From the NCBI RefSeq assembly GCF_900604945.1, contig NZ_UWPB01000001.1:1-64000 (forward strand): 64,000 nucleotides of DNA. The letters run 5' to 3'. Below the pieces are notes generated by a model. The model was not told the DNA's origin. It saw nothing but the letters and a program-made list of their open reading frames with translations, and did no database searches. Position 1 is the first letter of the stretch; each line of letters starts with the position of its first letter. The stretch comes from Ruminococcus sp. Marseille-P6503. Its GTDB lineage: Bacteria > Bacillota > Clostridia > Oscillospirales > Ruminococcaceae. Shown here in pieces: positions 3,226 to 25,636 of this stretch. The translations under genes were made by a program, and so were the position numbers.

Positions 3226-3982
3226 TTATATTTTATTCTTGCTGAAAAAATCAATCAAAATATTCTTAATATAATTATAGCGTCTAGCATATGAATTTTC
3301 CACACGTATTAGTTCAAATCCTTGCTGACGGCAAATTTCATTTTTTTGATTATCACGCTTCTTTACAATTTCGTCCTCAAAATGTTCTTTACCGTCTAGT
3401 TCTATTGCTAAGATAGGAAATTCCTTTCTGTCTTCAGCCTTTTCATAAATCACAAAATCAAATCCTCCCGAATAAAACAGATGACTGTGGGTGATATTGT
3501 TTCGAAAAACCTGAGAAATTGCAACTTCTTTCTTGATTGTGCATTTTCCTCCGCCCATAACGTTGCCGAGAGCATGATCTAAACTTGTGAGAAACGCTTC
3601 CTCTGTTTCTGTATTTACGATTATTAAAATCTATAATTTTCTTTCCGCAGCGATAATGATAGCTGAGCAAGATTTCATCACTGACAGAATCACAGGCTAG
3701 AAATGTTTTGTAAATAGAGTTTTTTATTTAGTCATATTTATTTGAAACTCCGTACTTTTTTCTAAGAACATCGTTATCAGCCTTGTCAAGTAGAATAACA
3801 GGATTAAGCTGTTGAGGGTCTCCTACAAGCATAAGATTCTCCGCTCGGATAATCGGTACAAGCGACATTGCAGTATTACACTGACTTGCTTCATCAATTA
3901 TGCACATATCAAAATACGGCTTTGGTTCGCCTATTTTATATGCAGAAATGCAGGTTGCAGCCATAATCGGAAATATTCTCAT
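3226..3982 (-). pseudogene. Broken superfamily 1 helicase with C-terminal nuclease-like domain
   Basis: Three minus-strand fragments in different frames read as one decayed gene. The first (3982 to 3728) carries helicase motif II IIDEASQCN and motif III GDPQQLNP, then stops. The next frame (about 3715 to 3630) continues with 'LSYHYRCGKKIIDF', the next conserved block of this family. A frameshift near 3620-3630 leads into the last fragment (to 3226), whose 'AIELDGKEHF' resembles a DUF559/DUF2726 endonuclease-like fold. Most of the N-terminal half with Walker A is absent, so at least one large deletion, one stop and one frameshift are present. Such helicase-nuclease proteins are often linked to defence or repair. 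Confidence 0.8.
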
Positions 3983-13784: not shown

Positions 13785-14068
13785 ATAAGAAAATGCGGCG
13801 ATAGGAACAAGTAGCGTTTCAGAGCGGCTTCAGAGAGTATCCGGAGGGTGCGAGGATACGGCGGTTTGATTCGTGAATACATCTTGGAGCAGATTTCCTC
13901 AGAAAGCGGAGCAGGGCTTCGCAAAGGGAAGTACGGAAGCGTCCGTTAAAGCGCAGGGCTTTGCAGCTATGCTTAGCCGTTAAGGTCGGGAATATCCCGA
14001 TAAACCGAGGTGGTACCGCGATAGATTCGCCCTCTGATAAGCTTAGGCTTGTCGGAGGGCTTTTGTAT
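13785..14068 (+). promoter_or_regulatory. T-box leader with tyrosine (UAC) specifier
   Basis: All landmarks of a T-box riboswitch are in order: 'GATAGGAACAAGTA', the AGAGAG bulge (about 13831), and the specifier region 'GTGAATACATCTTGGAGC' (about 13876-13893). The universal T-box 'GAGGTGGTACCGCG' follows at 14007-14020. Last comes a terminator, GCCCTCTGATAAGC pairing with GCTTGTCGGAGGGC then TTTTG (14029-14064). Aligning to the usual GAA-codon-A pattern gives UAC, tyrosine. Uncharged tRNA-Tyr would stabilise the antiterminator. The first gene downstream is a radical SAM gene; tyrS itself is third, 2.1 kb away. Confidence 0.93.
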
Positions 14069-23280: not shown

Positions 23281-23559
23281 TTATTTGTCAACTTCTTCAA
23301 CCGCATCTTCGATGTTGTCAAGGTCGGCTTCCGTATCGTCCGTTACCTCGGGCGCGGCAGTATCGTCAGCAGCTTCGCTGTCGTCAGTAGCTTCCTCAGC
23401 CGCACATTCGTCGCAGTCGCAGCAGCAGTCGTCAAAATCGTCGTCAAGCTCTTCGTAATCGTAATCCTGAAGCTCCTTGCGCTTTTTTAATGCAAAAATT
23501 GCAGCAGCACCGGCAGCGACAGCTCCGAGAGCAGCAAATATTTTCAATCCATTACCCAT
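23281..23559 (-). CDS. Small acidic membrane-anchored protein with Cys cluster
   Basis: The 92-residue product has one N-terminal transmembrane segment (about residues 4-22, rich in Ala and Gly) and a KKRK stop-transfer. The rest is strongly acidic. A Tyr/Asp stretch leads into a cluster of five Cys (CCCDCDEC, about residues 46-53), then a Thr/Ala/Asp/Glu tail. AAAGGAG stands at proper distance from the ATG at 23559. The Cys-Asp cluster could bind metal, but no family is recognised. It has its own promoter and terminator, so it is probably a real gene. Confidence 0.7.
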   Translation of the reverse strand: MGNGLKIFAALGAVAAGAAAIFALKKRKELQDYDYEELDDDFDDCCCDCDECAAEEATDDSEAADDTAAPEVTDDTEADLDNIEDAVEEVDK

Positions 23560-23643
23560 GTTCAAACACTCCTTTAAATTCTTTCCGATACGAAACCGCA
23601 GATGTATAAAAGCAGCGCAAACTTATCGTATCAGGTTATATGT

Positions 23644-23742: not shown

Positions 23743-24462
23743 TTACATATTGTCTGTAAGCGACATTATAATACTGACGGCGGCAATTGGAGCCGTTTCA
23801 CATCTTAATATCCGTCTGCCGAGGGATATGATTTTAACTCCGGAGTTCTCCGCTTTCAGAACCTCGCTGGGCCCGAAGCCGCCCTCGCTTCCCGTGACTA
23901 CGCCCGCGCTTCCGCATGAGGAAAAGACTGCTTCTTTCAGCGGAACGCCGCCTTTTTCATAGCATAAAAGCGAAATATCCAGACCGCCGAGAGCACGGAT
24001 ACATTCGTCAAACGATATTATTTCCGAAACCTGAGGGATTATACCGCGTCCGCATTGCTTTGCCGCTTCAAGCGCGATCTTCTGCCAGCGCAGACGTTTT
24101 TTCTCCGCGCTTTTTGAATCCGGACGTGAAACGCACCTTTCGGTAAGAATCGGATGAATTTCACAGACTCCGAGCTCTACGGCCTTCTGGACGATAAGAT
24201 CCATTTTGTCAGCTTTAGGGAGAGCCTGAAACAGATGGAGCTGTATGTCCGGCTCCGAGGCAGAGGGACGCGAATACATTATCTCGCAGTTTACTGAGCT
24301 TTCGGAAATTTTCGATATTTTTGAAACATATTCCGTCCCGCTGCTGCAAAGAATAAGCTCGTCTCCCGTTTTCATGCGCAGGCTCCTGCCTATATGAACG
24401 GCGTCCTGCCCGGTGATCACGGCATTGCTTCCGTTTGGCTCGTCTATAAAAAAACGCGGCAT
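23743..24462 (-). CDS. rsmE: 16S rRNA m3U1498 methyltransferase RsmE
   Basis: RsmE methylates N3 of U1498 in the decoding region of 16S rRNA. The 239-residue protein has an N-terminal PUA-like domain (MPRFFIDE... 'DAVHIGRSLRMKTGD'). The SPOUT knot domain contains 'ALPKADKMDLIVQKAVELGV', 'TGSEGGFGPSE' and 'SLGRRILRCETA', the trefoil-knot AdoMet site. GGAGG lies eight bases upstream of the ATG at 24462, so the longer frame to 24546 is not used. Confidence 0.95.
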   Translation of the reverse strand: MPRFFIDEPNGSNAVITGQDAVHIGRSLRMKTGDELILCSSGTEYVSKISKISESSVNCEIMYSRPSASEPDIQLHLFQALPKADKMDLIVQKAVELGVCEIHPILTERCVSRPDSKSAEKKRLRWQKIALEAAKQCGRGIIPQVSEIISFDECIRALGGLDISLLCYEKGGVPLKEAVFSSCGSAGVVTGSEGGFGPSEVLKAENSGVKIISLGRRILRCETAPIAAVSIIMSLTDNM

Positions 24463-24507
24463 ATGAGTGTCCTCCATGTGAATTAAGCAGTTTTTTGTGT
24501 GTAAAAT

Positions 24508-24536
24508 AGTATAGCACAGCTTCAAAAAAAGTTCAA
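24508..24536 (-). promoter_or_regulatory. rsmE promoter
   Basis: TTGAAC-17-TATACT on the minus strand, 46 bases before the rsmE ATG. Confidence 0.65.
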
Positions 24537-24596
24537 TAAATTTCATACTAAATACAATAAGTTTTCACACGCATATCACATTGATTGGATATCATA

Positions 24597-24787
24597 TATA
24601 CATCAGAGGACAACGGTTCATCTGATGAGTTCTTTTGATTGTCTGCCGGAAAGTCGGCAGGTTATTATGGTATGTTGGCTTTTACCCCAAGCCTTCATAT
24701 ATACAGTTCAGTAGATTAATTTCTACTGGCTTCTCCCCTATAATTTTTTATTTTTTGGCTCCCGTCTTTATGGCGGGAGTTTTTTTG
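24597..24787 (+). ncRNA. Candidate structured small RNA: chain of four hairpins and a terminator
   Basis: No coding frame fits here, yet successive hairpins fill the segment. CATCAGA/TCTGATG pairs 24601-24607 with 24621-24627. CTGCCG/CGGCAG pairs 24643-24648 with 24655-24660. GGCTT/AAGCC pairs 24677-24681 with 24689-24693. CAGTAG/CTACTG pairs 24709-24714 with 24723-24728. An intrinsic terminator CTCCCGTC/GGCGGGAG (24759-24779) with a run of seven Ts closes it. A separate promoter further down (24881) serves the next gene, so this looks like an independent transcript or an abandoned leader. No family was recognised. Confidence 0.45.
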
Positions 24788-24880
24788 CCTTTTTCTATTT
24801 ACCAGGCTTCTGCCGCCGGAATAAAAGGCTGTCAGTGTTTTCGTGCAAAACGAAAATTAAGTGAAAACAGGCAAAAAACA

Positions 24881-24909
24881 TTGACAGCGAAAGCTAAATG
24901 TAATATAAT
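24881..24909 (+). promoter_or_regulatory. Promoter of the 198-residue membrane protein gene
   Basis: TTGACA-17-TATAAT; the untranslated leader is about 125 bases. Confidence 0.8.
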
Positions 24910-25039
24910 TTATATGCGTATATACGGCTGCGGCTGAAATTGAAGCCAACGCTGCCGATCAGTAAGAATTTCAACGGCTTTGCGGCGGCTGTCTGATAAC
25001 TATGCGGAAGCAGCCGGCGGTTAGGGCGGAATGTAAGAT

Positions 25040-25636
25040 ATGAATTTTTTTACTTTAGGTTATGCTTTTTTGGTCATACATCTTAATATGGGCTGGACTT
25101 CAAGCTATATTCTGAAGCTTGCCGGAATACTGTTCATGCTGGGAGGAATATCGGAGATATCCGATTTTTCAAAAGCGTTCTCGGGTCTGAAAAAGCGGGC
25201 GTACGCTTCGCTTGCGGTTTCGGCGGCGTCCTGCCTGATCATTTTGTGCTTCAAGCTTGCTCAGCGGGAAGGAGAGCTGTTCAGCGCTGTGAGCATTATA
25301 GCGGGAACAGCGTCGGTTGCGGCTGCGTTCGTGTTTCTGCGGGAGCTTATGAGGCTGCTTGCTGAGAACAGCTTGCTCGTAAACGACACGTCGAATATTT
25401 CACGCCTGTGCTCCGGCTGGCAGAAGCTTGCCTTTTTTACGATCGTAAATATGGTTTTCGATATTCTGAACAGACTCGTCCCGTCGGCGGCGGTTGCCGA
25501 TTTTGCAGGAGTTATGGTGACCATATCAAAAATAATTCTGTTTGCGTTCGTTATATCTACCGCGTGGACGTTTAATAAGATCAGATGTGATTTCAATAAT
25601 AAGCACCCGGACGGCGCCGATGTTTCGGAAAAATAG
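25040..25636 (+). CDS. Hypothetical membrane protein
   Basis: This 198-residue protein has about five hydrophobic segments (near residues 1-15, 22-38, 53-72, 80-100 and 130-175) and a short hydrophilic tail. I recognise no family. It has its own strong promoter and lies 170 bases upstream of the glycosyltransferase/YfhO pair in the same direction, so it may serve the same envelope pathway. A weak hairpin around 25695-25719 separates them. Confidence 0.65.
   Translation: MNFFTLGYAFLVIHLNMGWTSSYILKLAGILFMLGGISEISDFSKAFSGLKKRAYASLAVSAASCLIILCFKLAQREGELFSAVSIIAGTASVAAAFVFLRELMRLLAENSLLVNDTSNISRLCSGWQKLAFFTIVNMVFDILNRLVPSAAVADFAGVMVTISKIILFAFVISTAWTFNKIRCDFNNKHPDGADVSEK

Follow-up and report, generated by a model that had tools for sequence, protein, structure and literature searches.

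The csRNAs of Streptococcus depend on CiaR and are characterized by promoters with the direct repeat TTTAAG-N5-TTTAAG, located 10 nt from the -10 element, by lengths of 51–202 nt, an intrinsic terminator, and an unpaired region that is complementary to Shine-Dalgarno sequences (PMC3091779). LhrC of Listeria depends on LisRK and carries CUCCC...UUUU motifs in its loops and in a single strand between stem-loops (PMC4132741). RoxS/RsaE of Bacillus and Staphylococcus, which depends on ResD/SrrA, contains C-rich regions that are able to pair with Shine-Dalgarno sequences (PMC4409812). In low-GC Gram-positives, C-rich single strands that are thought to bind ribosome-binding sites also occur in FsrA and in further sRNAs with a UCCC motif (PMC4132741).

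The RNA described here was found in a window of 64,000 nucleotides (the whole stretch of DNA that was analysed) of Ruminococcus sp. Marseille-P6503. It is a new family of this known kind and stands outside the csRNA, LhrC, and RoxS/RsaE families. Probably, it is a trans-acting sRNA under the control of a two-component system, and its C-rich strands pair with ribosome-binding sites. Like the csRNAs of the CiaRH system, it has a direct-repeat promoter, a terminator, and an unpaired C-rich region, and two-component control is proposed. Unlike the csRNAs, its half-sites are TTCAYA/WTCACA with a distance of 9 to the -10 element, the sequence and fold of the RNA are different, and it occurs in another bacterial family as a single copy at rsmE. 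With LhrC it shares the C-rich motifs in a loop and in an inter-stem single strand as well as the proposed two-component control, and a second Ruminococcus sRNA is sometimes arranged in tandem, similarly to the multicopy LhrC; in contrast to LhrC, the RNA itself is present in a single copy and matches no Rfam model. The likeness to RoxS/RsaE lies in the C-rich regions and in a regulator at the promoter, which is predicted here from the box, whereas the stems are unrelated and the RNA has no Rfam-model match. FsrA-type sRNAs have similar C-rich single strands, but there is no detectable homology and the promoter type is distinct. LhrC, RoxS/RsaE, and the csRNAs are a strong precedent for the proposed mechanism.

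The RNA interval (24597–24787) consists of four hairpins and an intrinsic terminator. It is located between rsmE, which is encoded on the minus strand, and a gene for a membrane-type protein of 198 aa (25040–25636) for which no Pfam family was found, and it is present once in the genome. The features of the locus are as follows:

23743–24474, minus strand: rsmE, 16S rRNA methyltransferase (Pfam PF04452/PF20260), located outside the RNA in divergent orientation and a marker of the locus in relatives
24542–24547, plus strand: outer half-site TTCATA, which precedes half-site 1 by 22 bp, or two helical turns (sequence, kept phase)
24564–24569, plus strand: half-site 1, TTCACA, of the response-regulator type (box conserved within the genus and beyond it)
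24575–24580, plus strand: half-site 2, ATCACA, which takes the place of a -35 element and follows half-site 1 at a distance of 11 bp (box conservation)
24590–24595, plus strand: -10 element TATCAT, 9 bp after half-site 2 (box conservation)
24601–24627, plus strand: 5' hairpin 1, predicted by folding, lineage-specific and outside the conserved core
24636–24667, plus strand: 5' hairpin 2, predicted by folding, lineage-specific and missing from short-form relatives
24670–24700, plus strand: core helix 1, a GUAUG..GGCU stem with the apical loop UUUUACCCCA (fold and covariation)
24684–24688, plus strand: C-rich motif ACCCC in the loop, the first candidate site for pairing (kept in most genera)
24705–24731, plus strand: core helix 2, variable in sequence and covarying (pair changes on both sides)
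24731–24742, plus strand: single strand UUCUCCCCUAUA, almost invariant and with an A/U-rich tract after it, the second candidate anti-Shine-Dalgarno site (conservation)
24757–24786, plus strand: core helix 3, the intrinsic terminator with seven T (covariation)
24881–24909, plus strand: promoter of the membrane-protein gene downstream, separate from that of the RNA, with the consensus TTGACA-N17-TATAAT (12/12 matches)

The initial annotation of this segment had described four successive stems with perfect pairing and a terminator with seven Ts. The coordinates of the stems and the terminator agreed with this description, the latter comprising a stem of 10 pairs (24757–24781) and seven T at 24780–24786. 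All four stems exist, but the pairing is not perfect throughout: stem 1 is bulged, and a 2x2 internal loop interrupts stem 3. The minimum free energy of 24597–24787 was -61.8 kcal/mol, compared with -40.1 ± 3.8 kcal/mol for dinucleotide shuffles (z = -5.71), and none of 200 shuffles reached the stability of the native sequence. The extent had to be revised in part: the fold of 24597–24787 was retained, but the conserved unit is the 3' part, and a conserved promoter lies just upstream at 24542–24595. From the sequence, transcription would start at about 24602, and a length of about 185 nt in this species and about 120–190 nt in its relatives is predicted.

The RNA was detected by BLAST in 13 of 16 genomes of the genus, including all six genomes that are at least 90% complete. 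With the covariance model R1 it was found at E < 1e-7 in 21 of 298 sampled genomes of the family, representing at least seven genera. Among 394 genomes of the order, the model yielded only weak matches besides G000 (best E 1e-3), and thus no convincing copy beyond the family. Named copies were contributed by an exact-motif (18-mer) scan of GTDB contigs, which also matches unrelated taxa, so that only covariance-model matches were retained; they are from Ruminococcus albus (L094, L114), R. bicirculans 80/3 (L110), and Ruminococcus sp. YE71 (L092) and FC2018 (L128). Two further types of elements were observed. L069 (G156:C37:355-447) is a weak covariance-model match (E 6e-4) with an ACCCC loop and a good box of the response-regulator type, TTCACGGGATTTACACA..TATTAT, upstream, and is possibly a diverged member from another genus. 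L070 and L071, from genomes of 0.8–0.9 Mb (genus g111), contain a short RNA-like element of a hairpin, CAACUCCCCUCUAAAUUUUA, and a terminator, which resembles the 3' half of the RNA and is not accompanied by the box.

A lack of conserved pairings in related genomes had been named as an outcome that would speak against a structured RNA; instead, the comparative alignment revealed that the pairings are conserved and that 24 of the 26 core pairs covary. The three-helix consensus was specified by hand on the 13 copies of the genus, for which an independent MAFFT alignment was used. In these copies 96.7% of the cells were paired, and 13 pairs had compensatory changes. Among 53 distinct aligned copies, the 24 covarying core pairs were changed on both sides, and 224 double-change cells were counted, compared with 54 ± 8 after shuffling and at most 40 when the partners were slid. 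Likewise, 96.1% of the cells were paired, compared with 37–51% when the partners were slid by one to three columns. Since the 53-copy alignment was fitted to the model, it leans to the structure; however, the differences from the controls are large, and the MAFFT alignment of the 13 copies agrees. Core helix 1 was paired in 99% of the cells and had double changes at seven of its nine pairs across the family, all seven modelled pairs of core helix 2 were changed on both sides, and the same was true for all 10 pairs of core helix 3, the terminator, across the family. At the level of sequence, the comparison shows selection on the fold.

The proposal of the initial annotation that this may be a new structured RNA was supported by the database scans. 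No family matched the RNA interval when the whole window was compared with Rfam 15 at gathering scores, and RsaE/RoxS, LhrC, and the other Rfam 15 families all failed to reach theirs. A scan of 24500–25050 at E ≤ 10 gave matches at chance level, the best of them far under the gathering scores. Elsewhere in the window, a T-box leader was identified at 13789–14037 (Rfam RF00230, 105 bits). In the literature searched, neither a description of the RNA nor a described trans-acting sRNA in Ruminococcus was found; an unnamed entry in the supplements of a human-microbiome candidate list (PMC8040213) is possible.

The conserved unit comprises the 3' ~125 nt (about 24663–24786), in which stems 3 and 4 are followed by the C-rich linker and the terminator. 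Core helix 1 has the consensus GUAUG..GGCU/AGCC..CAUAU with a loop bearing ACCCC, and the single strand CUUCUCCCCUAUAAUUUUUU lies between helix 2 and the terminator. The UUCUCCCCUAUA linker and the ACCCC loop are both unpaired in the consensus, so that two conserved C-rich segments are exposed. UUCUCCCCUAUA was intact in 28 of 29 copies, the exception (L054) having one extra C; this recount was confined to copies retrieved by BLAST or the covariance model, as pattern-retrieved copies contain the motif by construction. The ACCCC loop was conserved in most genera; its loss in genus g137 counts against the proposed mechanism. Comparison of the copies also shows that the exposed C-rich strand is near-invariant. 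In contrast to the core, the 5' part is variable: it ranges from near nothing, where no more than about 20 nt separate the start from helix 1, up to two or three hairpins. In the relatives L008, L012, and L013, the extended 5' part bears a CCUCC strand, which is a possible third anti-Shine-Dalgarno site.

A search for TAGGGGAG ribosome-binding sites 4–11 nt before ATG yielded few matches and no excess over the reversed pattern, and two of the matches were the antisense strand of the RNA itself. One pair of orthologous matches (L145, L158), which precedes similar proteins in two related species, was the sole pair of its kind and was rejected as a target for too little support. The main rival to the proposed pairing is that the RNA mainly binds a protein via CUUCUCCCCUAUAAUUUUUU and titrates or recruits it; this protein would be a translational regulator or an RNA chaperone. 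The lack of an excess of matching ribosome-binding sites would be in accordance with this explanation, as would the conservation of the strand over at least 12–16 nt across genera while all helices vary, and the near-invariant strand of 12 nt exceeds the typical length of an sRNA seed. Nevertheless, the two C-rich segments and the additional CCUCC in L008, L012, and L013 fit repeated anti-Shine-Dalgarno sites, and C-rich single strands of other Firmicutes sRNAs pair with ribosome-binding sites. We regard a predominant protein-binding role as rather unlikely, while pairing of the C-rich strands with ribosome-binding sites is inferred.

A conserved box, TTCAYA-N5-WTCACA-N9 followed by the -10 element, is located upstream of the RNA, and no -35 element is conserved. 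The exact form TTCAYA-N5-ATCACA-N9-(-10) is present in 12 of the 13 genus copies, and the 13th deviates by one base in the first half-site. Relatives have a further half-site (TTCATA, TTAATA, or TTAACA) 22 bp upstream in the same phase. The strict box occurs at 14 sites in the 16 genomes of the genus, 12 of them at the RNA and two elsewhere, while the reversed pattern does not occur. A box score of at least 14 of 16 was reached by 83% of 52 regions upstream of copies from many genera, compared with 0.24% of shuffles. OmpR/PhoB-family regulators commonly activate transcription via two half-sites that are one helical turn apart, replace the -35 element, and have a fixed distance to the -10 element. 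As a sequence arrangement, the box is of this OmpR-family response-regulator promoter type, a direct repeat at a fixed distance from the -10 element that is conserved across genera. The half-sites resemble the PhoP half-site of B. subtilis. Regulation by phosphate (Pho) was nevertheless rejected, since the loci around pstS-like matches were devoid of a repeated box of this kind. At G000:C7:1186798-1187625 and G003:C7:125058-125828, a PstS-like gene adjoins pstC; its match to the PstS model is split in two, the C-terminal half coming before the other, and it possibly encodes a permuted phosphate-binding protein. One of the strict boxes outside the RNA (L043, G001:C139:1749) lies directly upstream of a gene for a Clp-type ATPase with an N-terminal CxxC motif; it may be a chance occurrence or a true member of the regulon.

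The relaxed box TTHAYA-N5-WTHACA-N9-TANNAT was found at 40 sites in the 16 genomes, compared with four for the reversed control. Sites of this form precede genes for OmpR-family regulators, for example at G000:C4:207041 (L184; TTAACA-N5-TTAACA) with its orthologue in G003 and at G005:C20:22944, and a few other sites precede other genes. The promoter of a paralogous regulator, G000:C7:610375 (L233), has the sequence TTTACA-N5-TTCATA-N9-TATTCT, which is conserved in G003. The presence of the 11-bp-phased box in the promoters of paralogous OmpR-family regulators suggests autoregulation. A second C-rich sRNA carries the box TTCATATTCGG-TTCACA-N9 before its -10 element. Present once or as two or three tandem copies, it is oriented divergently to an operon that encodes an OmpR-family regulator and a HAMP histidine kinase. 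It is located at G000:C7:502118-502357 (L183, about 3575–3858, minus strand) and occurs in several genera (also L185-L192 and L197-L205); in other genera, a version lies beside the regulator in every locus with a readable regulator start. In this second sRNA, GAUAAAACUUAAAG/CUUUAAGUUUUAUC form a long hairpin, whose loop region holds CUUCCCUC in the long copies; the single strand UCCCUUUCAUAAUUCUAUA is strictly conserved, a terminator is present, and no match to Rfam was found. By comparison, the RNA of the window belongs to a set of similarly promoted genes that includes this second sRNA.

A strong match to the kinase (E < 1e-38), with a profile that covers the sensor/HAMP part, was obtained in 14 of the 298 family genomes. 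All 14 are among the 21 genomes that contain the RNA, an association that is inflated by shared ancestry, and the kinase was not detectable in the remaining seven. The closest relative, G003 (99% complete), has the RNA and its box unchanged, while the kinase was not detected and the regulator paralogues are at most 62% identical. Because G003 keeps the RNA and has only regulator paralogues, another regulator of the OmpR-family group may be the true one; as co-occurrence with the kinase is not one-to-one, control was assigned to the group and not to a single gene.

The persistence of the RNA in genomes without the kinase is also what would be expected if the RNA were a trans-acting sRNA with a promoter that is constitutive or under an unrelated factor, the likeness to a response-regulator box being a coincidence. 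In addition, the box of the RNA, TTCAYA-N5-ATCACA, differs from that of the second sRNA. However, the type of half-site, the 11-bp phase, and the 9-bp distance to the -10 element are common to both sRNAs and to the regulator genes that appear to be autoregulated, and no -35 element is conserved, so that this explanation seems improbable. Transcription of the RNA and binding of the regulator to its box are put forward as predictions.

In most copies, rsmE lies divergently on the upstream side; the gene downstream differs between species. A gene (window 23281–23565, minus strand; no Pfam family) whose small, acidic product has a hydrophobic N-terminus and contains a CCCDCDEC cluster is kept near rsmE in several relatives. 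As rsmE is the constant neighbour and a likely minus-strand promoter is located at 24508–24536, the conserved elements could serve the regulation of divergent rsmE, as operators or in antisense control, with incidental hairpins. This is very unlikely, because the compensatory changes in the helices and a terminator that faces away from rsmE require selection on an RNA that is read in the direction opposite to rsmE, and at several loci rsmE is several hundred bases off or outside the fetched flank. A riboswitch-like or attenuator leader of the membrane-protein gene, to which hairpins and a terminator upstream of a same-strand gene might point, is hardly credible, as that gene has its own perfect promoter past the terminator, the RNA and rsmE stay while the downstream gene changes between species, an anti-terminator pairing is not evident, and the most conserved part is single-stranded.

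The initial annotation had left open whether the segment is an sRNA or an orphan riboswitch-like leader, and had already ascribed a consensus promoter of its own to the downstream gene. The latter was confirmed by the promoter at 24881–24909, 3' of the RNA terminator. Conservation of the RNA upstream of a regulated, co-transcribed gene, as expected for a riboswitch or cis-acting leader, was not found across the copies; because rsmE is divergent in most copies and the downstream gene changes, the RNA is no leader of a single gene. Covariation, the RNA's own promoter and terminator, and its persistence beyond that of the downstream gene favour the sRNA, while the separate promoter and the non-conserved gene speak against the leader. 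Comparative evidence thus characterizes the locus as a stand-alone RNA gene with its own promoter and an intrinsic terminator.

In the mechanism that we propose for a two-component-controlled sRNA, an independent, intrinsically terminated regulatory RNA would be read from its own promoter, at which two (to four) 11-bp-phased half-sites for an OmpR-family regulator would stand in for the -35 element. With an active sensor kinase, the response regulator would turn on the RNA, and the RNA would act in trans. Base pairs with G-rich ribosome-binding sites would be formed by ACCCC in the first core loop and by CUUCUCCCCUAUAAU in the linker that precedes the terminator, and the pairing of CUUCUCCCC/ACCCC would block translation of the target mRNAs. 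A bolder combination, in which one two-component system of the Ruminococcaceae acts largely via the two sRNA families and the near-invariant CUUCUCCCCUAUAAUUUUUU strand serves to dock an RNA-binding protein not yet described and is not a simple pairing seed, is judged to be a doubtful prospect.

Taken together, the analysis describes an RNA that occurs family-wide and covaries strongly, along with its defined promoter box, a candidate regulatory system, and another candidate sRNA of this regulon. Species of Ruminococcus are major fibre degraders of the gut and the rumen, and an sRNA network becomes directly testable in the culturable R. albus and R. bicirculans. The principle that a two-component regulator drives C-rich sRNAs, as in Streptococcus, Listeria, Bacillus, and Staphylococcus, would thereby be extended to this family of Clostridia.
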